A stretch of DNA of 64,000 bases from the NCBI RefSeq assembly GCF_030440425.1, contig NZ_CP098023.1, positions 2,159,501 to 2,223,500 on the forward strand, read 5' to 3'. This document shows positions 39,415-57,138 of the stretch, one piece after another. A program made the translations under genes and the position numbers. The stretch is from Microbulbifer sp. MI-G (GTDB lineage Bacteria; Pseudomonadota; Gammaproteobacteria; Pseudomonadales; Cellvibrionaceae). The notes beneath the pieces are model-generated. The model had not been told where the DNA came from. It worked only from the letters and a program-made list of their open reading frames with translations, and searched no databases. Numbering within the stretch: position 1 is the stretch's first letter; every line of letters starts with the position of its first letter.

Positions 39415-39520
39415 AAGTTTCTCCACTTTGCTGGCAGTCAAAAAGTGTATAGAAAATCACTGTTTTGTTTTATCCTCAATCCCGTTAAACTACATATAGA
39501 ACCATGCAAGGGACCTCGTT

Positions 39521-39970: not shown

Positions 39971-40774
39971 CTAGTTCCGGCTGCGTCTTAATGCACTGCG
40001 ATCAAAATCCCTATCATTGAAGCCGTTCTCGAATTGGTAATTATTCATTATCAATAATGTTTTTTTTCCGGTTTGAATATTTTCCATAAGCATTTTTTCG
40101 GGACGCCAAAACCCATTTAAATATTGCTTGTATCCCTCAAAAGTTAACACTTTCAACAGACTGTCCTTTCTATCGTAGTAGTCTAAGCGTAATGGTTGGT
40201 ACATAATTTTGTCGAGCCATACAATCTGGCGATGATAACCAGAATATTCGTAAACCGGCTTACGCTCGATCACAAACGCTTCTCGATCGTCGACAGTTTC
40301 ATCCCGTAGCCATTTATAGGTGTATCTTTCCAGTTCTTGCGATGTCATGTCTTCATAAGCAAATTCACTACCTACAAAGGGACCAGATTTGTAAACGGAA
40401 GAAATTCGCTTAATTCTTTTCAGCGCTGGCAAATATAGCCACTGATCATCTGGATCAAGTGAATGCGTATAGCTTAAAAATGCAGTTCCCTTAATATCTT
40501 TTGGGTAATGAAATGTAGTTAATGTCTTGTCTCCATCGTTTTCCACTTCCAACCGGCTAATTTTAAGCAATCGTGTGCTGCTCTCTCCCTGCTTATTGGA
40601 AAGTATCATTTCCATTTCCACACGCTGGTCTACCCAACCTGAATCGCGGCGAATCATTTCACTGGCAATTTCAAACCCTTTAGCTACTGGGTCAATAGGT
40701 TTAATCTCTGCATCTAACAAAGTGCTATACAGACCCAGACACAGGGTGATCATGATTAAAGGCGGTATTCTCAT
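39971..40774 (-). CDS. LolA-like periplasmic protein (outer membrane lipoprotein-sorting family)
   Basis: A 267-residue exported protein. The ATG at 40774 has GAGGAG upstream and opens a signal peptide (MRIPPLIMITLCLGLYS); a TTG 15 bases upstream is disfavoured. The mature part has the LolA-like sequence pattern of proteins paired with MMPL transporters: WVDQRVEMEMILSNKQG, TFHYPKDIKGTAFLSY, WLYLPALKRIKRIS, FVGSEFAYEDM. It overlaps the MMPL gene by 50 bases and should act with it, carrying a hydrophobic molecule or lipid across the periplasm. The substrate is unknown. Confidence 0.85.
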   Translation of the reverse strand: MRIPPLIMITLCLGLYSTLLDAEIKPIDPVAKGFEIASEMIRRDSGWVDQRVEMEMILSNKQGESSTRLLKISRLEVENDGDKTLTTFHYPKDIKGTAFLSYTHSLDPDDQWLYLPALKRIKRISSVYKSGPFVGSEFAYEDMTSQELERYTYKWLRDETVDDREAFVIERKPVYEYSGYHRQIVWLDKIMYQPLRLDYYDRKDSLLKVLTFEGYKQYLNGFWRPEKMLMENIQTGKKTLLIMNNYQFENGFNDRDFDRSALRRSRN

Positions 40775-43067
40775 TCTTGATCTCCTCAATCTTCATAAGC
40801 ACTGCAGGTAACAACAGCAAATCGGCAAGGAGCGCAAACACGATGACAATCGCGGTTAAAAGACCCATGCCAGCATTTAGGTAAAAACTTGATGTGGCCA
40901 GTATTGAAAAACCAATCACCAATAAAAAGGAAGTTGTGATTAAAGCTGGGCCTACCATTTTAAACGCATAACGAATGGCATTTTCACTACTAATATTCTG
41001 TTCTTTTCTTGCCCGCAGGTATTTGCTTAAAAAATGTACTGTATCGTCCACCACTATCCCCATAGTAATAGCCATTACGACTGAAAGGCTAAGTCCAATT
41101 TGTCCTACCAGTATCCCCCACAAACCAAATCCCATGGCAGCAGGAACTAAATTTGGAATCAAACTGATAAGTCCGAATTTTACAGAGCGGAAAGCAATCA
41201 TTAGCAAAAAGGAAATAATTAACAGGGCTACAGTTGTTCCTAAAAGCATACTCTTGATGTTATGCATGCCGAGTTTGGCAAAAACAATATTTGTACCTGT
41301 TGCTTGGGTTATTTTTATATGTGAGCCGTTCTCTTTAAGCCAGTCATTTGCTCTTTCTTCTAATGCCAATAATTGTTGTGATGACAGGGTGTTGACGGAC
41401 ACGGTCAGGCGTGTAGAAGACTTATCAACATTTAACTGATTATTGAGGTCCAAACCATATGGAAGTGACATCTCAAATAACAATATGTACTGTGCCGCCA
41501 GGTCCCGGTCAACAGGCAATCGATATGCATTCGGGTCATCTCCATGCATATTTTTATTTAAACGCTTAAGAATATCAGTAATACTGCTGACATGAATTGT
41601 CTCTGGCTGTTGGCGAAACCACTGGGCGAATGCTTCCAGTTCAGCTAGAAACCTGGGATTGTGAATACCGCCTGACTCTCCGGACTCAACCGAATACCCC
41701 AGATAGTACAACCCTGTCAGGTTGTTAGTGGTATAATCACTATCGACTCTAAATTGAATAGAATCATCAAAATAGTGTAAGAAAGTATCGTTAAGCTCAT
41801 TACGTGGAATATTTGCAATAAGTAGCACCACAATAGCCATGGTTGTCCATAACAAAATTACCCTGCGACGTACCACTAGATCTGCGAGTTTTTCAATTAA
41901 TTGACCACCTCTTCTCTCACCTTGTTGAGGTCTAAGTGGAAATAAGCTCATCAAGGCGGGTAAAAGGCACAGAGACATATAACAGGAGGTCAGTACACCA
42001 ACCCCTACTATTGTGCCAAGATGATTAAAAGGCGGAACATCCGAAAAATTCATTGATAGAAATCCTACCGCAGTAGTTACACAAGCAAGCAGCACAGGTT
42101 GCGCATTGACCCGAACACTTTCCTGTAGTGCCTTTTTCTTACCTGAACCTCTACGCATAGCAAAATTTATGGATCCGAGAATATGAACACAATTCGCGAT
42201 TGCAACTGTTAATATAATCGAGGGAGACAGTGCCGAGGGTGGCGAGAGCGGAAATCCCAAGTGACCAGCAGTCCCCATTGCTACCAGAATTGATGAAAGA
42301 ATAACCAAAAAAGTTGACAACGTACCCCAAAATCGACCTACTATGACAGCCAGCAGGATAAGCATGACTGCAAAACTAAAAGGGACTAATTTTTTCATGT
42401 CCCGCTGTGATGATTCGGGAAAGGCATTATTTAGCAGCAGTGTTCCAGTCAGGTAAACCTTGATATCCGGCCTTTCCTGACGTATTTCCTCCGCCATAGA
42501 TCTGGCAAAACTTACCGCTGCAGGGATTTCCGCTATTTCATTTTTCCGCGGCATCTGCACGGTTACATTTATCGCCGTAACTGTCGCATCTATGGAAATG
42601 AGCCGCCTGAATAACAGTGGTTCATCGAGAGTTATTTCCCGAATTTTACGCAGCGATTGTTCATCAAGGAGCTGATCCTTTTCCACTAAATCGTGAACAC
42701 TGAGCTCATCGCCGTCTGCATAGCTATACTGAAAGTTTGTGATTGAGTCAACACGCGTTGAGAAAGGCACCTTCCAGGCTTTATCCGTCAACTCCCGGAT
42801 CAACTGAAGATTATCTTTTGTGAAAACATTTTTGTCATCCGGCGCCAATACGATCAGTATATTATCATCTTTCGTATAAGTATTCTCCAGTGCTTCATAG
42901 GCTAATCGGTTGGGATTTTCTTCACTAAAAAATACGCGAAAATTATTTGTGAAATATAAATTACGGACACCAATCGCTGCAATTAAAACCATACTTAATG
43001 CAAGTGATATAACTAACCAGCGTTTTTCAATAACCCAAACGGCAAGCCGATTTTCACACTTTTCCAT
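40725..43067 (-). CDS. MMPL/RND family transporter
   Basis: A 780-residue membrane protein in two similar halves, each with one hydrophobic helix, a large periplasmic loop and a cluster of about five helices (SFAVMLILLAVIVGRFWG..., LIPNLVPAAMGFGLWGILVG, MAITMGIVVDDTVHFLSKY). The conserved GIVVDDTVHF and ILTVAIANCVHIL stretches are typical of MMPL proteins. It uses proton flow to move hydrophobic substrates. Together with the LolA-like protein and the barrel protein encoded downstream it could form an envelope export or lipid-transport route, possibly for the polyketide product. That link is inferred from gene order. Confidence 0.9.
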   Translation of the reverse strand: MEKCENRLAVWVIEKRWLVISLALSMVLIAAIGVRNLYFTNNFRVFFSEENPNRLAYEALENTYTKDDNILIVLAPDDKNVFTKDNLQLIRELTDKAWKVPFSTRVDSITNFQYSYADGDELSVHDLVEKDQLLDEQSLRKIREITLDEPLLFRRLISIDATVTAINVTVQMPRKNEIAEIPAAVSFARSMAEEIRQERPDIKVYLTGTLLLNNAFPESSQRDMKKLVPFSFAVMLILLAVIVGRFWGTLSTFLVILSSILVAMGTAGHLGFPLSPPSALSPSIILTVAIANCVHILGSINFAMRRGSGKKKALQESVRVNAQPVLLACVTTAVGFLSMNFSDVPPFNHLGTIVGVGVLTSCYMSLCLLPALMSLFPLRPQQGERRGGQLIEKLADLVVRRRVILLWTTMAIVVLLIANIPRNELNDTFLHYFDDSIQFRVDSDYTTNNLTGLYYLGYSVESGESGGIHNPRFLAELEAFAQWFRQQPETIHVSSITDILKRLNKNMHGDDPNAYRLPVDRDLAAQYILLFEMSLPYGLDLNNQLNVDKSSTRLTVSVNTLSSQQLLALEERANDWLKENGSHIKITQATGTNIVFAKLGMHNIKSMLLGTTVALLIISFLLMIAFRSVKFGLISLIPNLVPAAMGFGLWGILVGQIGLSLSVVMAITMGIVVDDTVHFLSKYLRARKEQNISSENAIRYAFKMVGPALITTSFLLVIGFSILATSSFYLNAGMGLLTAIVIVFALLADLLLLPAVLMKIEEIKNENTAFNHDHPVSGSV

Positions 43068-43082: not shown

Positions 43083-43988
43083 TCAATTCGACGATACAGC
43101 TTGGATAACTCTTTTTTGATTTGATGTTCTGTGTAATGTCCTGTAGGCACCGTATACAAGAGCAATTACTAAAAGTGTAAGAGTTGTATATGAAAGCATC
43201 TGAAAATTACTTGTATGCTCACCAGGATAAGCCTGTAATATTGACCAGGCGATACACCCAGAATAAAAATAAACCCAATAAGTTATTAGATTGAAGCAAT
43301 TTTCGCCGGTATGAAGTCGTGAGATAACCCAATAGGCAACACTCAAGAAAGAAAGTCCATACAATGCAATCACATGAGGTAACAGTATACGCCCGGCCTC
43401 TCCGGCTACGTATAGATTGGCATCAGTGCGCCCAAGATAAAACAACAAATAGACGACATTAGCTATAATAGTGAAGCCCATCAAATTGCCGATACTAAAG
43501 AAAACCAGTCCCGCCCTGACAGTCCGTGCTAGTGCCGAAGGTATCCCTGTAGATAGCGATTTATAACTTTGAAAGGTTATAACAAGTGCACCTATACAGG
43601 CTAATACGGCAAATAATATGATAAGTCTGGCAATAACGGCATTAAATGCCCCTGTCAACCAGTTGAAATGCGACATGGTTCCGCGTAGTTGTTGCATAAA
43701 AACGAAGACCAGTGTTAATGTTACTGCCCAACCGATAAATCCTACAGTAACTAGAGATCTCCTCCGCCAGACTGGCAAATAACTCAATAACCATGCAATA
43801 TTGATTTGTATCATGCTGAAACTGATGGAAAAAAGAATTGGTTTTCGCCAGGAAACAGTACCCGTAAGAGGCCCTCCCTCTACGACAAAAATAACAATGC
43901 TAACCGCACCAATAATCAAGCCGAATATAGCAAACAGGTAGAGAACCTTCTGATCCTTCTCCAACTCTCTCCAATATTGATTATTCAT
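43083..43988 (-). CDS. Multi-helix membrane protein of unknown function
   Basis: A 301-residue protein with about eight hydrophobic segments and short loops, including SWRKPILFSISFSM and GNLMGFTIIANVVYLLFYLG. I do not recognise a family. It precedes the MMPL gene by 15 bases on the same strand and so probably shares its transcript. The 274-base gap upstream may hold a promoter for a separate transporter operon. Confidence 0.75.
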   Translation of the reverse strand: MNNQYWRELEKDQKVLYLFAIFGLIIGAVSIVIFVVEGGPLTGTVSWRKPILFSISFSMIQINIAWLLSYLPVWRRRSLVTVGFIGWAVTLTLVFVFMQQLRGTMSHFNWLTGAFNAVIARLIILFAVLACIGALVITFQSYKSLSTGIPSALARTVRAGLVFFSIGNLMGFTIIANVVYLLFYLGRTDANLYVAGEAGRILLPHVIALYGLSFLSVAYWVISRLHTGENCFNLITYWVYFYSGCIAWSILQAYPGEHTSNFQMLSYTTLTLLVIALVYGAYRTLHRTSNQKRVIQAVSSN

Positions 43989-44262: not shown

Positions 44263-44880
44263 TTATCCTGTGTACTGCCAGGGAAAATACCTACTCCAGA
44301 TCAACATGCCAACGAGAGGAAGACCGGAGAATAGAACACCGGCACAAACTATTTTTGCTCCCCAAGATCTTAGAGACTCTCCATTGGCACTATATCTTTT
44401 GGAAGCATCTTGAGATTCAATACCAAATAAAATATTCAGTGGTCTTTGTACTAATATATATATTATGGACATAACCAGCGCAGCGCCAATTGGTGCAACA
44501 AATTGTCGATTAGCCGGTAGTTTGTAAAGCTCAGTAGGCATTTCATGAACAATCAAACCATAGGTGGCAAAGAAGAAGCCTAAGGTAGCTCCACCCAGAC
44601 CGTAGCGGACTAGTCTGGAGAAGCGGTGTTTGCTGTACATACTACTAATCCACAAAAATAACATATTCCATATGCCAAAGTATAATGCCGGCACAATCAG
44701 CATATTTTCTATAATTAGTGGACGGATAACCCCATTCGGATTGCTTAAGTCTATAGGGTGTATGCGGTGCATTTGACCAAAAACAAACAACGGTAAAAAC
44801 ATAACCGGATAACTACTGCCCGCTATAAATGCTTTAAGATGGTTTATATTACTCACACGAGTTAAAGAAAAATCACTCAT
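44263..44880 (-). CDS. Membrane protein of unknown function
   Basis: A 205-residue protein with about five hydrophobic segments (for example YPVMFLPLFVFGQM, ALVMSIIYILVQRPL, IVCAGVLFSGLPLVGMLIW). GAGGAG lies 7 bases before the ATG. It follows the rhodanese-E1 gene by 22 bases, so it is part of the same transcript. No family was recognised; a role in membrane anchoring or tailoring of a hydrophobic product is speculative. Confidence 0.72.
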   Translation of the reverse strand: MSDFSLTRVSNINHLKAFIAGSSYPVMFLPLFVFGQMHRIHPIDLSNPNGVIRPLIIENMLIVPALYFGIWNMLFLWISSMYSKHRFSRLVRYGLGGATLGFFFATYGLIVHEMPTELYKLPANRQFVAPIGAALVMSIIYILVQRPLNILFGIESQDASKRYSANGESLRSWGAKIVCAGVLFSGLPLVGMLIWSRYFPWQYTG

Positions 44881-44902: not shown

Positions 44903-46066
44903 TTACAACGCACAAGCAATAGGTTGTATTTCAGCGTAGTCGGGATATTTTTCAGTACTGCTTTTACACCACCGACACTCCATATTTGCCTCAATCGGCA
45001 ATTTCTTAAAAGTCATGTGCAGAGCATTAATGCTTAATACATGACCGAGTAATGGTACCCCAATTCCGAGTAACCACTTAACCGTTTCCGTAGCCATTAG
45101 ACAACCGATCACACCCGGAACAACACCTAAAACTCCCGCTTCGCTGCAAGAGGGAGCCAATTCCGGTGGCGGCGGTTCCGGATAAAGGCACCGGTAGCAG
45201 GGCGTAGAAGGTTTGACACCGGGTGCAAATACTGACACCAATCCTTCGAAACGATAAACTGATCCATGTATGTTCGGAATCTTTAATTTGGTACAAGCGT
45301 CTGCTATTAAATAACGTGTATTGAAATTATCTGTACCATCGATAACGACATCGTAACCCTCGAATATCGATTCGACATTATCTCTATTAAGCCGATTTTC
45401 GATGGCAATAACGTCAATATCGGTATTCATCTCCTGTAGCCTATGCCTGCTAGCCTGTGCCTTTGCGCTATCGAGATCATCTTCCGTATACATCACTTGG
45501 CGCTGCAAATTACTTAACTCGACCTTATCGTCGTCTATCATAGCCAAGGTACCAATCCCCGCTGCCGCCAGATATAAAGCCACCGGGCTGCCAAGACCAC
45601 CGGCACCAACAATCAGTACCCGGCTGTCTCTTAACTTCAGTTGACCCTCGAGACCTACCTCTGGCATCAACAAGTGCCGTGCGTAACGCGATTGTTCGTG
45701 ACTAGCCAGAATACGGGGTTGACAGCTTGGCAAATCCGACGCTTTCCAAGCGTCAAATCCGCCCGCAAGGGAAACGACATCCCGATAACCCAGTTCTTGC
45801 AACTGATGGGCGGCTATAAGAGATCGTTTACCCGAGGCACACATCAGTATGATTGTATCTTTGGGTTGAGCATATTGTGAGATCCGTAACTCCAAAAAAG
45901 CCCGCGCAATATGCTTTGCGCCCTGCGCCGTGCCGGATTCTATTTCCCGATCTTCACGTATATCAAACAGCTTTGATGTATCGTCACTAACTAATTTTAA
46001 AGCAGCCTCGGGCGTAATTTCTTTGACGGATGTCTGTATCTTTTTAAAAAAATCGTTTGTAGACAT
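44903..46066 (-). CDS. Rhodanese-E1 (ThiF/MoeB-like) sulfur-carrier activating enzyme
   Basis: A 387-residue two-domain protein. Residues 1-110 are a rhodanese domain with the persulfide loop CASGKR (Cys 76). The rest is an E1-like adenylating domain: VGAGGLGSPVALYLAAAGIG near residue 150, MIDDDKVELSNLQRQ, DGTDNFNTRYLIAD, the APSCSEAGVLGVV crossover segment and two CxxC pairs (CYRC, CRWC) that should bind zinc. In MoeZ/MOCS3-type fusions the rhodanese is C-terminal; here it is N-terminal. It should adenylate the C-terminal Gly-Gly of the sulfur carrier encoded two genes upstream and turn it into a thiocarboxylate. Its place in the operon points to sulfur insertion into the polyketide product rather than housekeeping. 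Confidence 0.9.
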   Translation of the reverse strand: MSTNDFFKKIQTSVKEITPEAALKLVSDDTSKLFDIREDREIESGTAQGAKHIARAFLELRISQYAQPKDTIILMCASGKRSLIAAHQLQELGYRDVVSLAGGFDAWKASDLPSCQPRILASHEQSRYARHLLMPEVGLEGQLKLRDSRVLIVGAGGLGSPVALYLAAAGIGTLAMIDDDKVELSNLQRQVMYTEDDLDSAKAQASRHRLQEMNTDIDVIAIENRLNRDNVESIFEGYDVVIDGTDNFNTRYLIADACTKLKIPNIHGSVYRFEGLVSVFAPGVKPSTPCYRCLYPEPPPPELAPSCSEAGVLGVVPGVIGCLMATETVKWLLGIGVPLLGHVLSINALHMTFKKLPIEANMECRWCKSSTEKYPDYAEIQPIACAL

Positions 46067-46131: not shown

Positions 46132-46599
46132 CTAACGCGGTATATCCATATACAGCATCACCATTGCCACTGTATTGAGAAGCCCACAGACAAAAATAAC
46201 ATAGGCTCTATACATATAGTATTGATAAATCGCCCAGGCTTCGCCACTGGAGGAAACCTGCAACTTTGGCCAACTGGAAAAGGTTCCATACAGAGTGAAC
46301 CCGATCATTATTGATAAAGCAAAAGATCGCAATCCCAAAAAGAATATTTCTATATTACCTTCAGGTGGATGTAGTATCGCCAGACCGGCACTTGTTGTGA
46401 GCTGTAAAAAGATGGCAAGGTATACCCAAAAAAATATATTTGAACCTTGCCCGACAACGAATCGAAAAGGAAATTTCCCATTTTGAGCCATAGATTTAAT
46501 AGCGGGCCAATCTATAATTGACCCCATAAATACGGCTCCCACCCACATTGCATTACTTACAGCATGCACACTTAGAAGAAAAATATAGAAGTCTTCCAT
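46132..46599 (-). CDS. Four-helix membrane protein
   Basis: A 155-residue protein with about four hydrophobic segments, starting LLSVHAVSNAMWVGAVFMG and containing FFWVYLAIFLQLTTSAGLAIL. The His-rich first helix recalls DUF2269 or CopD-like proteins, but this is weak. The ATG at 46599 lies 2 bases after the stop of the sulfur-carrier gene. A TTG 6 bases earlier would overlap that gene; the ATG is preferred. It is inserted between the sulfur carrier and its activating enzyme, so the three are presumably expressed together. Confidence 0.72.
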   Translation of the reverse strand: MEDFYIFLLSVHAVSNAMWVGAVFMGSIIDWPAIKSMAQNGKFPFRFVVGQGSNIFFWVYLAIFLQLTTSAGLAILHPPEGNIEIFFLGLRSFALSIMIGFTLYGTFSSWPKLQVSSSGEAWAIYQYYMYRAYVIFVCGLLNTVAMVMLYMDIPR

Positions 46600-46601
46600 T
46601 T

Positions 46602-46883
46602 TCAACCACCAGCATTCGACATCAATATAGTCAGCTCATCGCCGTCTTTTATGGGGGCCGACAACCCGCCACGTTGTTTTACATCCCTCTCACCCAAAAA
46701 CATCCGCAAAAAAGGTCGCAGTTCACCGTCATCGATTACTCTCTCGCTGATATCATTCGACAGTGAACAATCATCCAGTGTGCGGAACAGATCCATCAAT
46801 GTATCGCCCTCAACATCCACTTCGACAATACCCGGCATAAATTTTTGTAGCGCTGAAGGAAAATTCAGTTTTATACTTTTCAT
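46602..46883 (-). CDS. ThiS/MoaD-like sulfur carrier protein
   Basis: A 93-residue beta-grasp protein with the family pattern: IKLNFPSALQKFM at the start, VDVEGDTLMDLFRTLD, then a FLRMFLGERDV...IKDGDELTIL stretch and the exposed C-terminal Gly-Gly (MSNAGG) directly before the stop. The Gly-Gly end is where an E1 enzyme forms the thiocarboxylate, so no trimming protease is required. AAGGAG precedes the ATG. It lies between the E10 thioesterase and the rhodanese-E1 gene. Dedicated copies of such carriers in biosynthetic loci, for example thioquinolobactin, deliver sulfur to secondary metabolites. Confidence 0.9.
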   Translation of the reverse strand: MKSIKLNFPSALQKFMPGIVEVDVEGDTLMDLFRTLDDCSLSNDISERVIDDGELRPFLRMFLGERDVKQRGGLSAPIKDGDELTILMSNAGG

Positions 46884-46973: not shown

Positions 46974-47432
46974 CTATTTCTCGATCATGTCATAGCTATC
47001 TATGATGTCGAGCATAGAGTCGGGGAAGGCAACTGCTCTAATTTTTCCATCGATCTCCTGCATGGCAGCTGTGCCCTGCGAACCAAGGCATACGAGTTTG
47101 CGCTCGCCATGGTTATCCTCTTTATAATAGCGAAATTGGAGCATCATCTTCTCAGTTCCCAAAACACCTATATTCATATGCATAACTACTTTGTCAAATG
47201 CGTACAGCTGATCCAGGTACTGACAAGAAACATCCAGCGTAATCAATTTCAAACCATTATTGATTTTTTCCAATACATCTGTGCAGTATTCCTGGATGAA
47301 CATCTCCCGACAGCTACCCTGCCACACAACGAAGTTAGCAAAGTAAATATTTCCAACCACATTGGTTTGTTCAAATGTGGTGAAAAAACTGTATTCAAAA
47401 AATGCACCCTCATTGGTTCTCACAATAGGCAT
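46974..47432 (-). CDS. E10: Enediyne-type hot-dog thioesterase (E10/TEBC)
   Basis: A 152-residue hot-dog fold thioesterase closely matching SgcE10/CalE7: FFTTFEQTNVVGNIYFANFV, WQGSCREMF, LITLDVSCQYLDQLYAFD. The Asn in VGN and the Arg in SCREMF correspond to the catalytic or binding residues known in CalE7. It releases the polyene from the PKS in known systems. The ATG at 47432 has GAGGAG 7 bases upstream and overlaps the PKS gene end by 23 bases. A GTG 30 bases earlier has no such site. Its coupling to the PKS is a hallmark of the cassette. Confidence 0.93.
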   Translation of the reverse strand: MPIVRTNEGAFFEYSFFTTFEQTNVVGNIYFANFVVWQGSCREMFIQEYCTDVLEKINNGLKLITLDVSCQYLDQLYAFDKVVMHMNIGVLGTEKMMLQFRYYKEDNHGERKLVCLGSQGTAAMQEIDGKIRAVAFPDSMLDIIDSYDMIEK

Positions 47433-50400
47433 ATTCCAACTCCTCTTCTTCACACAGACCACTTAATACGAGGTACTTATCCCTACTGTTCAGTGGAATC
47501 AAGCTTATCCAATATTGCCCCCCATGAGCGCCAACCAAAGCCCAACCGCGATTAGCGGAAACGAGTTTGGGATTTTTTAATTCAGGCCAAAACCGTTTTA
47601 TCTCGCTCCAGGTCTTAGCTCCGCTATCATCGCTCGCTTCAAACCAGTCTTTAAGCTGTTCTTGGGTCACCTGCGAGTCGATATTGACCACCCGGACTCT
47701 ACAATCCAACGGATTTGAATTCACCGTTAACACCAATTCATGCGCTTTATCTGCCACCACGGAAATAGTGTCGACGGCACTGTACCGATTCAGTATCTCT
47801 CCCAACCGATGGCCGATATAAGCCGGCAACAGATCCTTATGCAGAGTCTGATGAATTTGGGCTCCGGATACGGGAGTCAAAGTCAAGCCCTGCCAATATT
47901 GGAGCAACTGACCATGTGCATCGCGCAATTGTGCGTTGACTAAAAAGCCATCTTTCCAGCGCCGCACTTGCTGGGTTTCAATATGATAGGGGGTTTCGTT
48001 ACTCTCAGCGATATAGGAGATTGACTCTACGCTGGACGGCAAAATACTCTCGTGGGGTATTGCCGCCTGGTGAGCGTGAATCACAGCGTCGTTAATCCCT
48101 ATGTCGCCCAATACGAGATCCAGAGAGTATTGTCCTCCCCAAGTAAGCTCTTGCTGCCTTGCTATCTTGCCTTGCACTCCAAGGTGTGTGATTTTTTGAA
48201 AACTATCGATACAGCGAAACTGACCGGTATGGAACAACAATGGCTCGTATACATCAGCGACGGGATTTATAACCAGATTTTCCTCGCAAGCCTGGAAGGG
48301 TGGAAGCTTTTGTTGCGCCTGGGGACTGAGTAGCAATCGGGCTTCATAGCAGTGGCTGTTGAAGCGATTTTCTCCGCTTTGCACACTGCTCCATAGCTGG
48401 TTGTCACTAACTCGCACAGCACTGACGCGTATACGTCTCGTGCCCTGTTTTGGTATCAGCACCGGTTCGCTGATATTTAAATCCTGAATGGTATGGATTT
48501 TTGCCCCAGGTACCAACGCACCGGCTACTTGCGCCATGGCCTCAAGGGCAATGACTGTGGGCAATACACACTGGCCAAGATAGACATGATCTTTGAGATA
48601 GGGATCCTGCTCGAAGGAAAGTTCACTGTCTGCTACCAATTCAACCCCGGCGTGGTAGTGTTGCACATGTTGCAGAAAACGATGAGAAGGCAGCCTGCTG
48701 GCAGTAAATTTAAGAGTGTTCAATCCTGCGTATCGTCCGCAAATCAGCGTGCGCAAAGATATGGGAGTTTGATGCCTGAGCAGCGCATCAAGCGCCTCCA
48801 GCCCAGTTTTCACTGGAATTGATGACACGCCGATGGCTGATAATTGACGCTGCATGCCATCGGCGCTACCCATACCGATCTCCGACCACACAGACCATTC
48901 GAGCACATGGCAGCGGGTATCCGGGTGGCTGGCCCCATAAGTCTCTATCAGCTCCGCCATCTCTTCGTTGGCCTGAGCATAGTCTGCGTTGCCGTGCATG
49001 CCGCTTTCCGCGATGATGGAGCCATAGCCCACAAGTAATTTCAAGGCGGGCAGCTGTTCAAGCAGGTTGGCCAGTCCAGCCACTTTTGGGCCGGCGGTTG
49101 TTTTAAAATCCTGTTGCCTGAGTTCACCCAGTACTTTTGGCTGGTTGATGCCCGCGGCATGTAAGACGGCGGAAATTTGCCCCCCCTCTTTTTGAATAAG
49201 GCCTATTACTGCTGCCAGCGCCTGGGCGTCGCACACATCCACAGATACATAGCTGGCCCGAATTCCCTCTTGAGACAGTTGTTGTATACGTTTGCTGAGT
49301 TCCGCATCTTGAGAGAGGTTTCTCCGCCCCAGCAGTACAATGGATGCGCCCGTGGTTTTCGCCAGGTGACAGGCGGATACATAGCCCAGTCCGGAACTGC
49401 CGCCGGTTACCAGGAGCCGGTCTTCCGAGGTGAGTAGTGAGGATGCAGCCCTCCTGTCTAACTGAATCCGCTGCCACTGTATCTGCAGGCGCCGGGAATC
49501 ACTATCGTATTCTATTTCATGCCAGCCTACACACAGAGACGCCTCCACCAGGGACCGGTCTATCCAGCGCGTGTCGGCGTCGGGAAAGCGCAGATAACAC
49601 ACGGGTATGTGGCTGTTCTCAAGGTGCCAGGTGCGCCAAAGGGGTGCCATATTCGGGGCATCTCCAGCTTGTATCACAACCACGCAATGCAGTTCCCGCT
49701 TGGCCAGTTCAACCAGTTCACCCAGCATTGCGTCATCGATGATGCTATCTTCAGATAGTCCGTAAAAGACAAGTTTACCCACCTGGGCTGCAGGATCCCT
49801 GCCATGCTTATCCAGGGCCTGCCGCCATTGGGGAAGTATCGCTCCGCAGTAAGTCCAGTTATTTATGGCTTCCTGTCGGGAAACCAAATCCATCGGCGGC
49901 AATTGTTTTTTAACCGCTTCAAAACAATGTACCCAATTGGGTAATGCCTCCAGGTCTACTTCTGCAATGGAGTCTACGGCTCGGGCATCGCCAGCGCTGT
50001 CAGCAATCAGTTGTGCCAGCTCACTCAACCGACTGTCGGTGTTGGCCAGCAGGGCGGCGGTGGAATAGGCCTTATGCTCCTTGCCAAAGTGTTTGACAAT
50101 TTTTGAAACAACTTCTGCAACAGTAAGAGAATTGATATGTAAATCAGATAAAATCTTGTCGTCGTTCTGAATTGATGCTACAGGAATTTCCAGGCGATCA
50201 CCGATAAGCTCTTTGGTATACGCCAGTATCGCAGCGGGATTATCACCATTACTGACGTCGTCACCTGCGACGAATTGCTCTCTTATACTGCTCTGTTTGC
50301 TGGTCGCTTCCATGGACTTGGCTGCGCGCTCCCGCAGCCACGCTTTATAACTTTCATCGTCAGTAATCAGTTCGCAGGGACTGGTAAGAAAATCAAAGGA

Positions 50401-53142
50401 CCAATTCCAATTCATCACATTTTTTTTCAAAATAAGATGGTCAAGTTCAGCAGCATCACTGCTTCCACTGACAAATTTCAATGCCAATAGACTTAGCAAT
50501 GGAAAGGTGGAATTTCCGCCTATATCCATAGCAATAACTGGTTTCGCACTATAATTTTTCAGTGTACTGGTCAGTGAGTTTCCAGGTCCCACCTCTACAA
50601 ACAGGTCGATCTCCGATTGCGCCAGCGTGATCGCCTGGTAAAATTGCACCGGATCACAAACCTGCTTTACCAGTAGCGACCGCCAGGCCGACGCTTCAGT
50701 GATGTTTCTCCCCGATATTGTGGAGATAACTCGCCTGGTGGGCTCCTGAAAATTCAGTTCCGACAAGCAGTCAGCGAACGGTTTATTGACCGATTTCATC
50801 ATTCTGGAGTGGAAGCCATGAGAAACCGGAAGAAGCGTGCAGAAATGGTCGGAGGTGATACGCTGTTGTAAAGCCTCTAATTTATCGACAGCACCGGCGA
50901 GAACGGTATCGTTGGGCCCGTTATAGCAGGCCACTTCAACATCGAACTTCTGAGCCAGCTTCAACGCCATTTCACTGGGAGCATGCAGGGCCAGCATGGC
51001 ACCGCCGGCTTCACCGCCGGAACTCATCAATGCACCCCGTTTTGTCGCAAGCGAAACCGTATCTTTGATACCTAGGCATCCCGACCAGCACAGCGCCACC
51101 AACTCACCGACACTGTGTCCGATGGCGAGTTCGGCCTGGATATCGAATTTTTCCAGAATCTGCAAAGCATTTAAGCTGCCACTCACAACTGCAGGCTGGG
51201 CAATAGCGGTATCCACAACACTACCATAGGCACCTCGCTTTTTTATCGAGGTAAAGGCTTCTTCATTGTCGAGATACCGTTTGTAAGCTCCACTGTCTGG
51301 GTAAACAGGGGCACCCTGTCCGGGAAACAGCAGACCAATGCGCGCTTCTGCTCCACTCCCGCTATAGGCTATACCCTGTTCCAAATCAAAATAACTATCG
51401 ACACCACTTTTTATTTTTTTAATCAGGTCAAGAATTTTTTTATTGAGTACAATACCATTTTTAGCACCGTTGTCGATGACCAGCGCAGCTCTGTACATAC
51501 ACTTCTTGTCTGCTATCTCGGGCCGCCCGCATAAGTAGGAAGACAAGTCTGTCAGCTCGGCATTGGATGCCTGCCAAGCGAAATTCTTGAGTTTTTCCAG
51601 TTGCCCTAACAGCTTATCTTGATTGGCTTCAGCCACGGGAAAAATATTTGCGTCCTGCCAGGTATGGTTGATATTGGAGTTATCACCCAGAAGGCCCTTA
51701 TGACTTAAAAACGCAAGTCCCTGAGCTGAATCTGAATCACTGTCTCCAGCCTCTAGGGTCAAATGAGTATTGATACCGCCGAATCCCATGGAGGAAACGC
51801 CCGCGCGATAGGGATTGAGACCTTCATAGGCGAGGAGCCGGTCCGATCGCTTCAACAATAGGGCATTTTCTTTTAGCAGTGGATGCAGTGTGTCAGTGGG
51901 TATACCCGGCGGCAGAATTCTATGCTTCAATACCAATGCCGCTTTAATCACACCCGCGATCCCCGCAGCACCCTTGGTATGGCCAATCAGGTGTTTTACC
52001 GAGCCGATATAAACGGCCTCATTCCGATCTGTCTTTCGCAACAGACTCAACACGGCACGCAATTCGGCTTCATCACCCACCGCAGTGCCGGTACCATGCC
52101 CTTCAAAGTAACTCACGGTGCCGGCGTTATAGGGAGACTTTTCATAGGCACGATTCAGGGCCAGTGCCTGAGTTTCAGCTTTGGGGCGGATAATTGCACC
52201 GCCGCCATCCGAGGATACCCCCCAACCCTGAATTGTTGCATAGATATTACAATCGAATCGACGTGCCTTTTCCTCGGTCATGACCAGTATCATCCCGCAG
52301 CCCTCGCCGGGCCAGAATCCCTGACTGTACTGATCAAAAATCCTCATTTGCTCGGGGGCCAGGGCACCGGTTCGTGAAAAACCGATGATTTCAAACGGAT
52401 CGATACTTAGGTCCACACCACCGACCAATACTGCATCAAATCCTCCGGCCTGCAGGGCATCACAGGCCTGAGTGACGGCCAGCAACGAGGAGGAACAAGC
52501 CCCATCTACGGTGAAACCACCACCATTAAAGTCAAAATAGTTGCAAATACGCCCGGCAATGGTATTGGCTAGGCCTCCCGCCAGACTATCCGCGTCTGGC
52601 TCAGGAAAGGGACTCTTATATAGCATTTCGAGGTCGTGCATAAAATGATGTTTGGCTTCTCTGCTCAACCCAAAATCCTGCTGCTCCCAGATTTGACTCA
52701 CGACACGAGCGACATAGGGCCATCGCAAGCGCATATTATTTGCCCGGGTAAATTCGCCGGCAAGTGAGTTACCCACTACAACGCCTATACGTTCCTTGTT
52801 CAGGCCGAGGCCGTTGGGAAAACCGGCATCCTCCAGGGCACCGTTGGCCACATCCAGGGCCAACCAGTGTGTCATATCTGTTTGCCGAAAAGTTGACTCA
52901 GCAATTCGATAACTCAGCCGATCAAATGTGTATTGATTGAGTACCGCAGCCTGGGTTGAATATGTATGATCTCTAGCGCCCGTATCGGTATTGTGATAAT
53001 CATCCAAATTAAGACGCTGTTCTGGAATGCGCCGAAATTGCTGGCGTAGATTCAATACGGTATCCAAAAAATCACTTTTATTGTGTATACCCGCGTACCG
53101 ACAATCAATCCCAACAATAGCCACTGAGCTATGTTCTATCAC
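47410..53142 (-). CDS. pksE: Enediyne-type iterative type I PKS (PKSE)
   Basis: A 1910-residue synthase in the order KS-AT-ACP-KR-DH-C-terminal domain, the layout and length of enediyne PKSs. KS: DGACSSS with Cys 216, then EGHGTGTAVGDE and KHLIGHTKGAAG. AT: GHSVGE with Ser 677. A single ACP with HINSLTV (Ser 1005), unlike the tandem ACPs of PUFA synthases. KR: TGGSSGLG and Tyr 1388 in DYAQANEE. DH: DHVYLGQCVLPT with His 1519. The tail resembles the integrated phosphopantetheinyl transferase, but the metal-binding acidic motif seems lost (NPLDCRVRV). GTG at 53142 is the likely start, with AGGAG 8 bases upstream; a TTG 30 bases earlier has no site. It should make a polyene from malonyl-CoA. Confidence 0.93.
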   Translation of the reverse strand: MIEHSSVAIVGIDCRYAGIHNKSDFLDTVLNLRQQFRRIPEQRLNLDDYHNTDTGARDHTYSTQAAVLNQYTFDRLSYRIAESTFRQTDMTHWLALDVANGALEDAGFPNGLGLNKERIGVVVGNSLAGEFTRANNMRLRWPYVARVVSQIWEQQDFGLSREAKHHFMHDLEMLYKSPFPEPDADSLAGGLANTIAGRICNYFDFNGGGFTVDGACSSSLLAVTQACDALQAGGFDAVLVGGVDLSIDPFEIIGFSRTGALAPEQMRIFDQYSQGFWPGEGCGMILVMTEEKARRFDCNIYATIQGWGVSSDGGGAIIRPKAETQALALNRAYEKSPYNAGTVSYFEGHGTGTAVGDEAELRAVLSLLRKTDRNEAVYIGSVKHLIGHTKGAAGIAGVIKAALVLKHRILPPGIPTDTLHPLLKENALLLKRSDRLLAYEGLNPYRAGVSSMGFGGINTHLTLEAGDSDSDSAQGLAFLSHKGLLGDNSNINHTWQDANIFPVAEANQDKLLGQLEKLKNFAWQASNAELTDLSSYLCGRPEIADKKCMYRAALVIDNGAKNGIVLNKKILDLIKKIKSGVDSYFDLEQGIAYSGSGAEARIGLLFPGQGAPVYPDSGAYKRYLDNEEAFTSIKKRGAYGSVVDTAIAQPAVVSGSLNALQILEKFDIQAELAIGHSVGELVALCWSGCLGIKDTVSLATKRGALMSSGGEAGGAMLALHAPSEMALKLAQKFDVEVACYNGPNDTVLAGAVDKLEALQQRITSDHFCTLLPVSHGFHSRMMKSVNKPFADCLSELNFQEPTRRVISTISGRNITEASAWRSLLVKQVCDPVQFYQAITLAQSEIDLFVEVGPGNSLTSTLKNYSAKPVIAMDIGGNSTFPLLSLLALKFVSGSSDAAELDHLILKKNVMNWNWSFDFLTSPCELITDDESYKAWLRERAAKSMEATSKQSSIREQFVAGDDVSNGDNPAAILAYTKELIGDRLEIPVASIQNDDKILSDLHINSLTVAEVVSKIVKHFGKEHKAYSTAALLANTDSRLSELAQLIADSAGDARAVDSIAEVDLEALPNWVHCFEAVKKQLPPMDLVSRQEAINNWTYCGAILPQWRQALDKHGRDPAAQVGKLVFYGLSEDSIIDDAMLGELVELAKRELHCVVVIQAGDAPNMAPLWRTWHLENSHIPVCYLRFPDADTRWIDRSLVEASLCVGWHEIEYDSDSRRLQIQWQRIQLDRRAASSLLTSEDRLLVTGGSSGLGYVSACHLAKTTGASIVLLGRRNLSQDAELSKRIQQLSQEGIRASYVSVDVCDAQALAAVIGLIQKEGGQISAVLHAAGINQPKVLGELRQQDFKTTAGPKVAGLANLLEQLPALKLLVGYGSIIAESGMHGNADYAQANEEMAELIETYGASHPDTRCHVLEWSVWSEIGMGSADGMQRQLSAIGVSSIPVKTGLEALDALLRHQTPISLRTLICGRYAGLNTLKFTASRLPSHRFLQHVQHYHAGVELVADSELSFEQDPYLKDHVYLGQCVLPTVIALEAMAQVAGALVPGAKIHTIQDLNISEPVLIPKQGTRRIRVSAVRVSDNQLWSSVQSGENRFNSHCYEARLLLSPQAQQKLPPFQACEENLVINPVADVYEPLLFHTGQFRCIDSFQKITHLGVQGKIARQQELTWGGQYSLDLVLGDIGINDAVIHAHQAAIPHESILPSSVESISYIAESNETPYHIETQQVRRWKDGFLVNAQLRDAHGQLLQYWQGLTLTPVSGAQIHQTLHKDLLPAYIGHRLGEILNRYSAVDTISVVADKAHELVLTVNSNPLDCRVRVVNIDSQVTQEQLKDWFEASDDSGAKTWSEIKRFWPELKNPKLVSANRGWALVGAHGGQYWISLIPLNSRDKYLVLSGLCEEEELEYAYCENQ

Positions 53143-53150
53143 CTTGTCTT

Positions 53151-53155
53151 CTCCT
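53151..53155 (-). promoter_or_regulatory. Ribosome binding site fixing the GTG start of the PKS
   Basis: AGGAG lies 8 bases before the GTG at 53142 on the minus strand. It supports that start over the TTG at 53172, and puts the conserved VAIVG motif of the KS close to the N-terminus, as usual. Confidence 0.65.
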
Positions 53156-53200
53156 ATAAACCCACAAGACAATTCTTTAATTTTACGATGTAAACGCTAA

Positions 53201-54136
53201 TTATGATGAGGGTAGTACATTGCCTGCCAGATTGGCTTGCACCCGTTGTCTTTCGAACCACAGGCTCAGCATGATAAACAGCCCGCGCGACCCGGTAACG
53301 ATGGTTACGGCAAAAAATATGGCAAAAACAACATGGAAGTACATCAGAACTCCATACGCCATGGCGATAGAAAAGCCGAACACAATTTGCGGTATAAGTT
53401 TACTTGGCGAAGTCATCGGGTCGGTAATCATGTAGAAGGTAAAGAGTACAAAGGCTGGAGCGGTGATCATGGTAATTTCGGCAGCCATTTGCACAGGATA
53501 TAATTGACCGCGAAGAAAAGCCTGAAGGAAAAAGCCCGATACCCAAGCCAATATGATCGCCATACGCTTGGTGAGAAACAAATTCATTCTCATACCTAAT
53601 AATGCAATAACGATGAGGACCAGCCAATCCCAAAATCCGCTATAGGTTTCAGTGAACTGATACACAATAATATTTGCCCATGGGGCCACTAGGAAAATTA
53701 CTGCAATACCGAAATTGGATGGGTTGAAAAAATGTTGATATCGGCTCCCGTTCTTGTAGCGAAAAACATGTTTTGAACCGATCGCCAGGACAACTGCAAA
53801 AACCATCATCAAGAGGCTGTCATTTACATATATGAGAAATGATATAGTGATCGCAGTCATGTGGGCGGGCAACATGAAAAATACAAAACCGCTCCAGCCA
53901 TTGCCTAGATACCGCGGCCTTCTCTGTAAACACTTCGCATCGATATATTCAAACAGAATTGCTGAAGAGTATCCCGCCATTAGGGCGACCGCCATTTGCA
54001 TTAAAGACTGTTCAAAACCTAGAAAAGCGTGGCCAAATACAGTTAATACGGTAGCTAAACTTGCGCTGTTTATTAATGCCATCTTTAAATTTGGCGGCCC
54101 TACAAATAAATCTTTAAGTGTACTCACAGTATCCAT
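53201..54136 (-). CDS. E5: Enediyne cassette membrane protein E5 (UnbU-like)
   Basis: A 311-residue integral membrane protein with about eight helices. It contains HFFNPSNFGIAVIFLVAPW and FYMITDPMTSPSK, the conserved blocks shared by enediyne E5 proteins and the RnfD/NqrB family of redox-linked membrane subunits. In known enediyne loci E5 always accompanies E3, E4 and PKSE; its reaction is not established, and a redox role is suggested by the RnfD similarity. It lies 58 bases upstream of the PKS start and 11 bases downstream of E4. Confidence 0.9.
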   Translation of the reverse strand: MDTVSTLKDLFVGPPNLKMALINSASLATVLTVFGHAFLGFEQSLMQMAVALMAGYSSAILFEYIDAKCLQRRPRYLGNGWSGFVFFMLPAHMTAITISFLIYVNDSLLMMVFAVVLAIGSKHVFRYKNGSRYQHFFNPSNFGIAVIFLVAPWANIIVYQFTETYSGFWDWLVLIVIALLGMRMNLFLTKRMAIILAWVSGFFLQAFLRGQLYPVQMAAEITMITAPAFVLFTFYMITDPMTSPSKLIPQIVFGFSIAMAYGVLMYFHVVFAIFFAVTIVTGSRGLFIMLSLWFERQRVQANLAGNVLPSS

Positions 54137-54147
54137 CCTTAACTGGG

Positions 54148-56091
54148 TTAAAAATTAGTGTTTGTGGCATACTGATCCTGGTTGCCCAGTAAAATGGTAT
54201 GCTGTCCTATTGATAATTTACCTTCCCAGCTGTCTAACTGTCCCAGGCGATTACGCCAGCGAATCTTTACATTCACCTGCGCATTTTCAGAAACGGACCC
54301 CAGACCAAAATGCACTGACTTGCTACGCGCACCCGCATGGCCGTTGCCCCCATCGACAAATCCGATGAACTTTTCACCTCTGGGCCCGGTAACCGTAACT
54401 TCTGCACCGATGGCCGGTGTACCTTCTCTGGCTAGCGGTCGACGCGGATTGGAGGAAAATCCGGTGTTGTTGTCCAGGGGCAGGAGGAGGGAAAGGCTCA
54501 GATAGCCGTTGCTATTTTTTGTTTCATTAAGTAGCAAATAGTGATCTTCCCACTGGTTGCCGACGGCATAGTCCAGGTCTCCGTCTCCATCGACATCGGC
54601 AATAGCAAAACCGCGACTCAGCCAGGGACCAGCCACACCCAGTTCCTCACTGATATCTTCAAAGTGTCCCTCACTGGACATAACATAAAAGGGGTTCCCT
54701 TCATTGCCACTGATGTCTCCCCCGATCATATTGGGCCAGGTTTTGGGATCGCTGAGCAGCGGATCCAGATTCATGGACCACTGGTGTAATTCCGGCCATT
54801 TATTGACCTCTCCGCGAAAAAAACCAGTTGCCTGAAGCGCCTCAAGGATTCCATCATTGTCAAAATCGGCAAATTTTGTATCCCAGCCCCAGCCACTATA
54901 AGCTACTCCCAGGGAGCTGGATTTTTCCAGGAACGGAGCAATTCCTTTTTCTATTGCTGCTTCATCGCCGGTATTCATCCATAAAAAATGTCCCTCTTCC
55001 AGTTTCCACTCACCGGCAATGTTGCTGACAAATATGTCGTAGTATCCATCGCGATTTACATCGCCAAAATCCACGCCCATTCCCTTGAAGGAGTCGTACC
55101 CCATGACTTTTGACTTTGGTATGGAAAATCCCTTTCTACCCTTCAAGCGTTTGAAACTTAAATTCCCCGGTGTGGATTTATTGAGGTACATGCCATCGGG
55201 CCCAAAATCATTCGCGATATACAAATCACTGGCGCCATCCCGGTTGATATCGGCCGCGCCTATAGCCAGGGTCCAACGCTCATCATCACCTTCCGGCATG
55301 CCAGTATCTGCCTCTTTGAATTGCACGTATGGCTCGGAGCCGCTGCCGGAGTTTTGCCAGAGAAAGATCCGGTTACTGCCTGCATTATCAGCATTCGAGA
55401 GAGAGTTGTGGAATTTTGGATAGTGCGTGCTATTTGCGTCATAAACTCTGTTTCCATCGGGAAAATAATTTCCCAAAATCACATCGATATGACCATCGTT
55501 GTCAAAGTCCGCCAAGGTAGCCGTCGATGTATACCAGTCCCTTATATCGCCCTTTACCAGCTCCTGTTTGATAAATCTCTGCTCCAGGGGCAGATTCACA
55601 TCACTTTTTTGCATTAATATTATCGGGGAGCGCCCGAAGAAGATTGCAAGTATATCTGCCAAGCCATCCTCATTAAAATCACCCACTCGACATCCACTGG
55701 GAAATGAAGCCTCGTTAAAATCCTGGCTGACAACCAGCAAGGTGGTAGGGGAAAAACGCCGATCTGTCTCTATTGCTGGCGCGACATAAAGGCTTCGGCT
55801 GCGGGGATCAGTAATACAAAAATCGTTTTCCAATCCATCCAGGTCCAAGTCCAGCACTGCGATGCTGGCTCCGACTGTGGATATCCAGGGTTCTATGTGT
55901 TTTAATGCCGGGTTCACAGGCAGCCGTTCACCGGGCGGAATCCTGCTGTCGACAGGGACCGTAGATTGGCGAAATTCAAATCGCTTGGCCATTGCTTTCT
56001 TTTCTTCAGTGCTAACAGATGGCAGCTGAACCAGGCCATACAAGCCTATCCAGGAAAAAAATATAAAAATGGCAACTACGCGGCTCATCAT
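54148..56091 (-). CDS. E4: Enediyne cassette protein E4 (UnbV/ASPIC)
   Basis: A 647-residue exported or anchored repeat protein: an N-terminal hydrophobic segment (RVVAIFIFFSWIGLYGLV), seven or so FG-GAP/VCBS loops (DFNEDGLADILA, DFDNDGHIDVIL, DINRDGASDLYI, DVNRDGYYDIFV, DVDGDGDLDYAV) and an ASPIC/UnbV end (IGAEVTVTGPRGEKFIGFV, KSVHFGLGSV). Length and gene position are those of E4 proteins. The start is one of three consecutive codons (GTG ATG ATG) after AGGGAG; the first ATG is used here. It follows E3 by 6 bases. Confidence 0.9.
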   Translation of the reverse strand: MMSRVVAIFIFFSWIGLYGLVQLPSVSTEEKKAMAKRFEFRQSTVPVDSRIPPGERLPVNPALKHIEPWISTVGASIAVLDLDLDGLENDFCITDPRSRSLYVAPAIETDRRFSPTTLLVVSQDFNEASFPSGCRVGDFNEDGLADILAIFFGRSPIILMQKSDVNLPLEQRFIKQELVKGDIRDWYTSTATLADFDNDGHIDVILGNYFPDGNRVYDANSTHYPKFHNSLSNADNAGSNRIFLWQNSGSGSEPYVQFKEADTGMPEGDDERWTLAIGAADINRDGASDLYIANDFGPDGMYLNKSTPGNLSFKRLKGRKGFSIPKSKVMGYDSFKGMGVDFGDVNRDGYYDIFVSNIAGEWKLEEGHFLWMNTGDEAAIEKGIAPFLEKSSSLGVAYSGWGWDTKFADFDNDGILEALQATGFFRGEVNKWPELHQWSMNLDPLLSDPKTWPNMIGGDISGNEGNPFYVMSSEGHFEDISEELGVAGPWLSRGFAIADVDGDGDLDYAVGNQWEDHYLLLNETKNSNGYLSLSLLLPLDNNTGFSSNPRRPLAREGTPAIGAEVTVTGPRGEKFIGFVDGGNGHAGARSKSVHFGLGSVSENAQVNVKIRWRNRLGQLDSWEGKLSIGQHTILLGNQDQYATNTNF

Positions 56092-56097
56092 CACTCC

Positions 56098-57138
56098 CTA
56101 CTCCACAATGGCTATTTTTTTAACTTGTTTGTCCTGAGAAGCGCAATCGTCTCTTTCCCCTGATAGCGCTGTGGCCATACGTTCCAGCCATATATTCCAA
56201 CTCGATTTTTCCTCAATCTCTGCAATATTTTGCAGCCCTTCCATTGCCTTCATGGCGATTGTATGCAGTTGATTTGCACTGAGGTTACTCAGGCAGTTTG
56301 CAGCCAAGTCGTTATGCTCTACCGCGTTACCAGCCCGAATTCGCGTATGGCAGGCGAGCGCCGATCCAACCTGCAGTGCAGTCTGGTAGTGCTCCTTCTC
56401 CGCAATCGCGGCCAATGAGGTAATTCCCGCCTGATCTATACCTCCCGCATAAGCACAGGCCAGGCCAATACCACACCAGAGGTCAGCACGAGCGGACTCG
56501 GGATAGTGCAGAAGACATTGCTCTATAGAATGCGGATCAGCACCGGAAATAAACCAAAGAGCTCGGCCTGCACCGGCATAGTACTGAGCCAGGCAATGGT
56601 TACCCGATGCTGGATTAGCAGAGATTTTGGAGACAAATGATTTGGGTAGATATTGTTCAAAAACGCTCGCTTGAGACTTGAAGTAGGTATGGTAAAAACC
56701 AATCCCGTTAATAACCAAACTGCCATATAGAGGGCTCAATCTGTCCATAAAACGCTTGTAAGGAAAACCTACTGCACCCACTGCTAATCCAGCTCCGACA
56801 CAAGCCATATAACTGTGCGGCGCTCCTTCATTCTGTATAAAATCAAAAAACTCATTGCGTCGGAAAAAGCTAATGGCATCACGTAAAAACAGTCCCATTG
56901 CCAAACCTTCGCTATAAAATCCGTTCAGTTCTGGTTTCGTTGCTCGTAATGACTGTACCAGACGCGATGAATAGCCTTCCTCTAGGGCGGTGTTATAGGC
57001 ACGTAAAACTGTTTTTGCGATCAGTTCCAGTCTATCTCTTGAACGACTGTTCAAGTTAAAGCCCCGTCTTTTGAAGTCTGCTTCACTCAACGGCTGTCCA
57101 AAGATGACTTTAATGAAGATCCCTGCACTAATAAACAT
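56098..57138 (-). CDS. E3: Enediyne cassette protein E3 (DUF1702/UnbL)
   Basis: A 346-residue DUF1702 protein: FIKVIFGQPLSEADFKRRGF at the start, then LELIAKTVLRAYNTALEEG, GFYSEGLAMGLFLRD, FIQNEGAPHSYMACVGAGLA and GLACAYAGGID, which are typical of E3 proteins. The function is not known biochemically, but the family is essentially tied to enediyne loci. It is the first gene of the cassette, so the promoter of the core operon lies upstream of 57138; no strong ribosome site or -35/-10 pair is evident. Confidence 0.92.
   Translation of the reverse strand: MFISAGIFIKVIFGQPLSEADFKRRGFNLNSRSRDRLELIAKTVLRAYNTALEEGYSSRLVQSLRATKPELNGFYSEGLAMGLFLRDAISFFRRNEFFDFIQNEGAPHSYMACVGAGLAVGAVGFPYKRFMDRLSPLYGSLVINGIGFYHTYFKSQASVFEQYLPKSFVSKISANPASGNHCLAQYYAGAGRALWFISGADPHSIEQCLLHYPESARADLWCGIGLACAYAGGIDQAGITSLAAIAEKEHYQTALQVGSALACHTRIRAGNAVEHNDLAANCLSNLSANQLHTIAMKAMEGLQNIAEIEEKSSWNIWLERMATALSGERDDCASQDKQVKKIAIVE

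Follow-up and report, generated by a model that had tools for sequence, protein, structure and literature searches.

An enediyne-type core cassette adjoining a putative sulfur relay in the gammaproteobacterium Microbulbifer sp. MI-G

The 64,000-nucleotide (nt) stretch of the Microbulbifer sp. MI-G genome analysed here (contig NZ_CP098023.1, positions 2,159,501 to 2,223,500; hereafter the window) is part of a genome of 4.48 Mb in two contigs. It carries an enediyne-type core cassette, E3-E4-E5-PKSE-E10 (PKSE, enediyne polyketide synthase), as five adjoining minus-strand genes running from 57138 down to 46974. That this cassette is real is practically certain. The best reading of the locus is a horizontally acquired pathway, the product of which would be a sulfur-bearing polyene of the enediyne type, exported from the cell; taken as a package of main points rather than step by step, this explanation has about an even chance of being right. 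The five genes stand in the order and on the one strand given by the initial annotation, with gaps of 3, 11 and 28 nt and a PKSE/E10 overlap of 53 nt for the longest starts. The features are as follows, with lengths in amino acids (aa).

56098..57138, minus strand: E3, DUF1702 protein, 346 aa (Pfam DUF1702, 1.1e-66)
54148..56094, minus strand: E4, FG-GAP repeats with UnbV/ASPIC, 648 aa, N-terminal membrane anchor (UnbV_ASPIC, 8.4e-11)
53201..54136, minus strand: E5, UnbU-like, NQR2/RnfD-like membrane protein, 311 aa (NQR2_RnfD_RnfE, 1.5e-5, sub-threshold)
47410..53172, minus strand: PKSE, KS-AT-ACP-KR-DH, 1920 aa from a TTG start (Pfam domains; KS and full-length trees)
46974..47462, minus strand: E10, hot-dog thioesterase of CalE7/SgcE10 type, 162 aa (4HBT_2, 5.3e-6)

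The profile and PDB matches agreed with this arrangement. E3 and E4 passed the profile searches, and E3 was the sole DUF1702 match in its own genome, with 98% and 82% identity to Microbulbifer proteins in a large database. The weakest-supported name among the five was E5, with a Pfam score of 25.0 bits vs a cut-off of 27.7; it is backed by homology, as the E5 query recovered the E5 counterparts adjoining the PKSEs of other loci. The domain order of the synthase was borne out with a single ACP stretch, the PP-binding score of which (20.4 bits) was just below the cut-off of 20.8; the relatives of this PKSE have 1910 aa and the nearest Microbulbifer proteins are 97% and 85% identical to it. E10 matched CalE7 (2w3x, 1.2e-24), an 'ACP-polyene thioesterase' (4i4j, 2.8e-24) and DynE7 (2xfl/2xem, ~1e-18). 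For comparison, 80 loci were collected by PKSE similarity alone and searched with single sequences in flanks of up to 10 kb, many of which were ended by contig ends; only three loci (L002, L003 and L004) were extended. Counterparts of E3, E4, E5 and E10 were found in 64, 55, 56 and 70 of the 80 loci, respectively, and all five core genes occurred together in 47. Since this was so despite the short flanks, the co-occurrence is not due to chance, and the counterparts across PKSE-selected loci make the gene assignments independent of any single profile. The gammaproteobacterial setting was likewise borne out, and the sulfur module, MMPL set and second UnbV protein that the initial annotation had placed around the cassette are all present. 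The usual P450s, glycosyltransferases and halogenases, which it had described as missing, were not found among the 21 Pfam-scanned open reading frames (ORFs) of 24-57 kb, small ORFs being outside the scan.

The placement of the synthase was analysed in a KS tree of 81 PKSE rows (the actinobacterial rows thinned beforehand), 7 PfaA-type rows from gammaproteobacterial genomes and 3 modular polyketide synthases. All 81 PKSE rows formed one clade (SH-aLRT 100), apart from the polyunsaturated fatty acid (PUFA) and modular KSs, and against the KS profile the window scored 728 bits vs 320-368 for the PfaA-type KSs. A KS grouping outside the enediyne clade had been named as the result that would speak against the assignment; the tree and the profile scores place it inside. 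Within the clade, the three Microbulbifer rows joined a group with named Bacteroidota members (24 rows, support 95; its remaining 21 rows, support 97). Three more sequences, one of them from a Myxococcota record, were sister to this group, giving a wider clade of 27 rows (support 99), and the actinobacteria stood apart (30 rows, support 99).

The window PKSE was also found to differ from the standard six-domain enzyme in having no C-terminal phosphopantetheinyl transferase (PPTase) domain, a gap that the initial annotation did not mention. A PPTase-like C-terminus is present in the PKSEs of actinobacteria, cyanobacteria, planctomycetes and other gammaproteobacteria. A profile built from 17 PKSE C-termini gave at least 60 bits in 137 of 201 PKSEs (the 17 source sequences included). 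In the wider Bacteroidota/Microbulbifer KS clade none of the 27 rows exceeded 18 bits, and the window PKSE scored 0 bits. Among the other 54 PKSE rows of the KS tree, 50 scored at least 71 bits and L047 scored 41; L011 and L032 were ended by contig ends and L109 was unscored. Among the 80 loci, a PKSE that is both complete and PPTase-less was found only in L002, L003 and L004. A separate PPTase-less lineage of Bacteroidota/Microbulbifer PKSEs is thus proposed with high confidence. Three PPTase-family genes were found elsewhere in the genome and, as the PKSE has none of its own, its ACP must be activated in trans by one of them. The locus also warns against regarding a built-in PPTase as a necessity for a PKSE.

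Directly behind E10 stand three genes of a putative sulfur relay.

46602..46883, minus strand: MoaD/CysO-like sulfur carrier, 93 aa, ubiquitin-like, C-terminal AGG (PDB 4n6e_B, 2.7e-10; 3dwg_C, 3e-9)
46132..46605, minus strand: M157, four-helix membrane protein, 157 aa, conserved alongside the carrier (no Pfam or NCBIfam family)
44903..46066, minus strand: rhodanese-MoeB/ThiF fusion (E1-like adenylyltransferase and sulfurtransferase), 387 aa (NF006444, 5.1e-156, above cut-off)

The two structures matched by the carrier are presumably the BexX-CysO complex of BE-7585A biosynthesis (4n6e_B) and the mycobacterial CysO (3dwg_C). The AGG end of the carrier was kept in 4/4 locus copies, as was the CASGxRS rhodanese loop of the fusion. 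A ubiquitin-like carrier with a C-terminal GG and an E1-rhodanese fusion with a Cys loop are thus both present, as in relays of the CysO-MoeZ type. In all four copies (window, L082, L084 and L004) the fusion also has a Cys as the third residue from its C-terminus, which the other MoeB-like protein of the genome lacks. The carrier and M157 occurred in 3 of the 80 loci, namely those of Flavivirga jejuensis (L002) and Aquimarina acroporae (L003) and L004. These loci have the fusion as well, which for L003 lies in the extension L084, and M157 is 43-45% identical to their copies. In the remaining 77 loci the trio was not seen in the flanks of up to 10 kb by single-sequence searches and, as only L002 to L004 were extended, this is to be read as absence within that distance. 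The trio is evidently co-inherited with the PPTase-less cassette. L002, L003 and L004 share with the window the PPTase-less PKSE, E3, E10, the whole trio and a LolA-like protein. The view that the surroundings match no known locus therefore had to be given up, as Bacteroidota loci carry the same sulfur trio.

The origin of the cassette was further examined in a full-length PKSE tree of 50 rows and 1856 columns, in which the Microbulbifer PKSE was sister to Bacteroidota PKSEs (16 rows, support 99; 19 rows, support 100). A single clade of the Microbulbifer PKSE with those of Luteibacter, Methylococcales and two Thiotrichaceae was rejected on full length by the approximately unbiased test (p-AU 7e-55), a value to be read cautiously because the KS alone does not reject a gammaproteobacterial clade (p-AU 0.07) and 47 of the 50 full-length rows fail the composition check. 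No DUF1702 match was present in 95 genomes of other relatives, 47 of which belong to the same genus (0/47). The G+C content is ~40-48% across 24-61 kb, except in the 5' part of the stretch and in the PKSE (up to 53%), and the left side has 50-56%. The rarity of DUF1702 in the kin, the base composition and an IS66-transposase-like remnant near 60958-61071 agree with horizontal gain, which is the best reading for the cassette, the direction of transfer being presumed. The region 57139-61365, in which this remnant lies, has 4.2 kb of low G+C without an ORF of at least 100 aa and is possibly the edge of an acquired island. The L004 contig, which is filed as a metagenome-assembled genome of Williamsia, nested inside Bacteroidota in both the KS and the full-length PKSE trees; by this placement it is probably mis-binned.

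Downstream of the trio lie genes of membrane, export and UnbV type.

44263..44880, minus strand: M205 membrane protein (no Pfam or NCBIfam match)
43083..43988, minus strand: M301 membrane protein (no Pfam or NCBIfam match)
40725..43067, minus strand: MMPL/HAE3-type resistance-nodulation-division (RND) exporter, 780 aa (MMPL, 2.2e-38; TIGR00921, 1.4e-54, below cut-off)
39971..40789, minus strand: LolA-like periplasmic protein, 272 aa (LolA_like, 2.8e-61)
37885..39441, minus strand: U518, membrane-anchored protein with two beta-barrel domains, partner of UnbV2 (no Pfam family)
35200..37872, minus strand: UnbV2, second UnbV/ASPIC beta-propeller protein, 890 aa, N-terminal anchor (UnbV_ASPIC, 2.6e-9)
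33854..35107, minus strand: OMP417, candidate outer-membrane barrel (signal stretch, C-terminal Phe; no Pfam match)
33328..33831, minus strand: flavin reductase, pathway membership unsure (Flavin_Reduct, 5.1e-35)

M205 and M301 gave no phmmer match in the Bacteroidota-type loci, and flavin reductases were found near 51 of the 80 PKSE loci with weak matches of ~31-57 bits. LolA-like proteins also follow M157 in L002 to L004, where an ABC/MacB pair takes the place of the MMPL exporter, accompanied by metallo-beta-lactamase (MBL)-fold or other genes of their own and, in two of them, by Porin_5. The MMPL, LolA-like and candidate outer-membrane proteins of the window, together with the ABC/MacB, LolA-like and Porin_5 proteins of these loci, suggest that a hydrophobic product would be carried across the envelope.

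A hydrophobic N-terminal stretch was present in 50 of 57 E4 ORFs, that of the window included, and U518 and UnbV2 also begin with such a stretch. The model of U518 gave two beta-barrel domains behind a helix (pLDDT 93.2) with no confident match to solved folds, the calycin/lipocalin-like barrel being the class considered. In L002 and L003 the UnbV2-U518 pair stands between E3 and PKSE, in the place that E4-E5 hold elsewhere, and in L055 it adjoins the PKSE; in L004, E4-E5 stand behind the rhodanese-MoeB fusion. Each of L002 to L004 thus has one pair in the fetched stretch vs both in the window, and one reading of this exchange is that U518-UnbV2 could serve the maturation step as a further partner or as an alternative one. 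The pair may instead have no part in the pathway and owe its place to the neighbourhood, a view whose chances fall only a little short of even, for another UnbV2-U518 pair of the genome (867 and 521 aa; L095:2325-6511, ~G000:C1:2150324-2154510) is not beside a PKSE and lies ~5 kb left of the window by a TonB receptor and the siderophore cluster. However, the pair recurs within the PKSE loci L002, L003 and L055, though these were chosen for PKSE, and U518 is otherwise very rare (1 of 369 Gammaproteobacteria genomes and 1 of 395 Bacteroidota genomes).

The pathway proposed from these genes would begin with the PKSE, its ACP activated by one of the three genomic PPTases, condensing malonyl units iteratively with ketoreduction and dehydration in each round. 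E10 would release a C15 polyene, which E3, E4 and E5 would convert, as they do in actinomycetes, to an enediyne-type core. E4 would act at the outer face of the inner membrane, and so, probably, would UnbV2-U518. The rhodanese-MoeB protein would charge the CysO-like carrier to a thiocarboxylate supplying sulfur for the product, and the MMPL, LolA-like and outer-membrane proteins would export it. That the end product is an enediyne is a tentative reading, to which we give somewhat less than an even chance. The product of the cassette could also be a lipid or pigment of polyene or thio-polyene type that is exported, with E3-E5 modifying the polyene in the envelope and no diyne ring being formed, which is a serious possibility though clearly short of even. 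The lipid-handling character of the MMPL and LolA-like export genes is in accordance with it, as is the lack of P450, halogenase and glycosyltransferase in the scanned ORFs. A precedent is RerA of Rhodococcus erythropolis, which in the parts of PMC11563203 available is an enediyne-like synthase with two tandem ACPs (one in the window) and its PPTase on a partner protein, and which makes polyenes up to C22. An enediyne-like KS with the PPTase off the synthase is common to RerA/RerB and the window; in the same parts RerB is a PPTase/thioesterase partner, whereas E10 stands alone. Against a plain polyene, E3, E4 and E5 are all retained, as in the loci of known enediyne-producing genera, and the same five-gene set is said in a passage of PMC9464397 to make the enediyne core.

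The function of the sulfur trio was weighed in the same manner. Protein thiocarboxylates are used in the biosynthesis of BE-7585A, thioquinolobactin and pyridine-2,6-dithiocarboxylic acid (PMC6225789, in part), and from the dynemicin pathway a thiolactone iodoanthracene has been reported (extract of PMC8725005). The window relay differs from such systems in adjoining an enediyne-type cassette, and no BexX-like sulfur-accepting enzyme was identified in the window. That the relay works for the product of this locus is judged slightly more probable than the contrary. It is unlikely that the trio serves cysteine, molybdopterin, thiamin, tRNA or protein modification and stands behind E10 by chance or as an oxidative-stress accessory. 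CysO/MoaD-MoeB pairs do serve primary metabolism in many bacteria, and the carrier is similar to SAMP1-family modifiers as well. However, this trio also stands behind the cassette in Bacteroidota-type loci whose surroundings differ, a second MoeB-like protein and a TcdA-like one are encoded elsewhere in the genome, and the fusion is nearer to the three locus copies (49-51% identity) than to its own MoeB-like paralogue (39% over 249 aa). A PUFA-type or ordinary iterative synthase, for which only the NCBIfam PfaA match of the KS-AT part would speak (450.7 bits, far below the cut-off of 1010.1), is ruled out within the rows used by the separate KS clades (100), in accordance with the KS profile scores, a single ACP where PUFA synthases have tandem ACPs, and the presence of E3, E4, E5 and E10.

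Several observations weigh against the preferred reading of a sulfur-bearing, horizontally acquired enediyne-type pathway, and to these belong the cautions on the topology test and the second UnbV2-U518 pair given above. The carrier scored below the curated cut-offs (Pfam ThiS, 0.0073; NCBIfam SAMP1, 4.4e-7), and the co-occurrence of the trio rests on four related loci. A genome of a Flavobacteriaceae-side family (G575) has E3-E4-E5-PKSE and no trio within 57 kb, so that sulfur is dispensable for the cassette as such. The PKSE of this genome (L112:18424-19899 with L113) is of another type, as its ORF ends early, and the next ORF has DH, weak PPTase-like and thioesterase parts. No tailoring or self-resistance gene of any known enediyne was recognised in the window.

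The comparison with known systems showed that actinobacterial loci, such as those of Streptomyces globisporus (L012, C-1027/sgc type) and of a Streptomyces zaomyceticus plasmid (L109), have the same five gene families, often in the same order; the strain of L012 is taken by us to be the C-1027 producer. Their PKSEs carry the PPTase domain, unlike that of the window, and the P450, oxidoreductases and regulators surrounding L109 were not recognised in the window. At least two DUF1702 genes were found in 40 of the 80 loci, all Actinomycetota, whereas the Microbulbifer genome has one. A second DUF1702-type gene (E2) presumably marks nine-membered enediyne loci; no E2 was found in the genome, and neither SgcJ nor an epoxide hydrolase was recognised in the scanned ORFs. 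The gammaproteobacterial cassette itself, for which the initial annotation had considered an undescribed pathway, is real but already in print, as E3-E4-E5-PKSE-E10 is reported from Methyloprofundus INp10 and two Methylotuvimicrobium species in the text seen of PMC8788690. The same five-gene set was also fetched from Luteibacter anthropi (L080) and Methylococcales (L061); their PKSEs have the PPTase domain and lie on other branches, and no sulfur trio was found in their flanks. Enediyne KSs occur in many phyla (PMC10308959, in part). No paper describing this Microbulbifer locus, or an enediyne pathway with a sulfur carrier, was found in the open literature, and the words enediyne and polyketide are absent from a phylogenomic Microbulbifer paper (PMC12538549). 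The variant thus looks new, and its kind is already known.

The remaining parts of the window were also surveyed. A siderophore-type cluster resembling pyochelin/yersiniabactin assembly occupies 1-28026 with a G+C content above that of the enediyne stretch, and contains non-ribosomal peptide synthetases, an Irp3-like reductase, a chorismate-binding enzyme, a type II chorismate mutase, an AMP ligase, a thioesterase and ABC transporters. Between this cluster and the enediyne stretch lie a 509-aa secreted protein without a Pfam match (28443-29972) and a PKD-domain protein of 673 aa that weakly matches cytochrome P460 (30330-32351). To the right of the island stands a lipoprotein-like protein of the Peptidase_M9 (collagenase) family (61366-63153).

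As the locus is compact, lies in a cultivable Gram-negative genus and brings a dedicated sulfur donor system and both UnbV pairs together with the cassette, the workings of E3, E4 and E5 and the origin of enediyne sulfur become testable by deletion and mass spectrometry. The host may make a sulfur-bearing relative of the enediynes which is not yet isolated. In the portion seen of mSystems 2023 (PMC10308959), Actinobacteria and marine ascidian extracts are named as the only reported sources of enediynes. It is conceivable, though rather improbable, that the locus represents a third, Gram-negative enediyne lineage in marine, often invertebrate-associated bacteria, with thiocarboxylate sulfur entering the core and maturation in the periplasm. 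If this were true, it could be the genetic type behind the sulfur-bearing enediynes that are known only from ascidian extracts.

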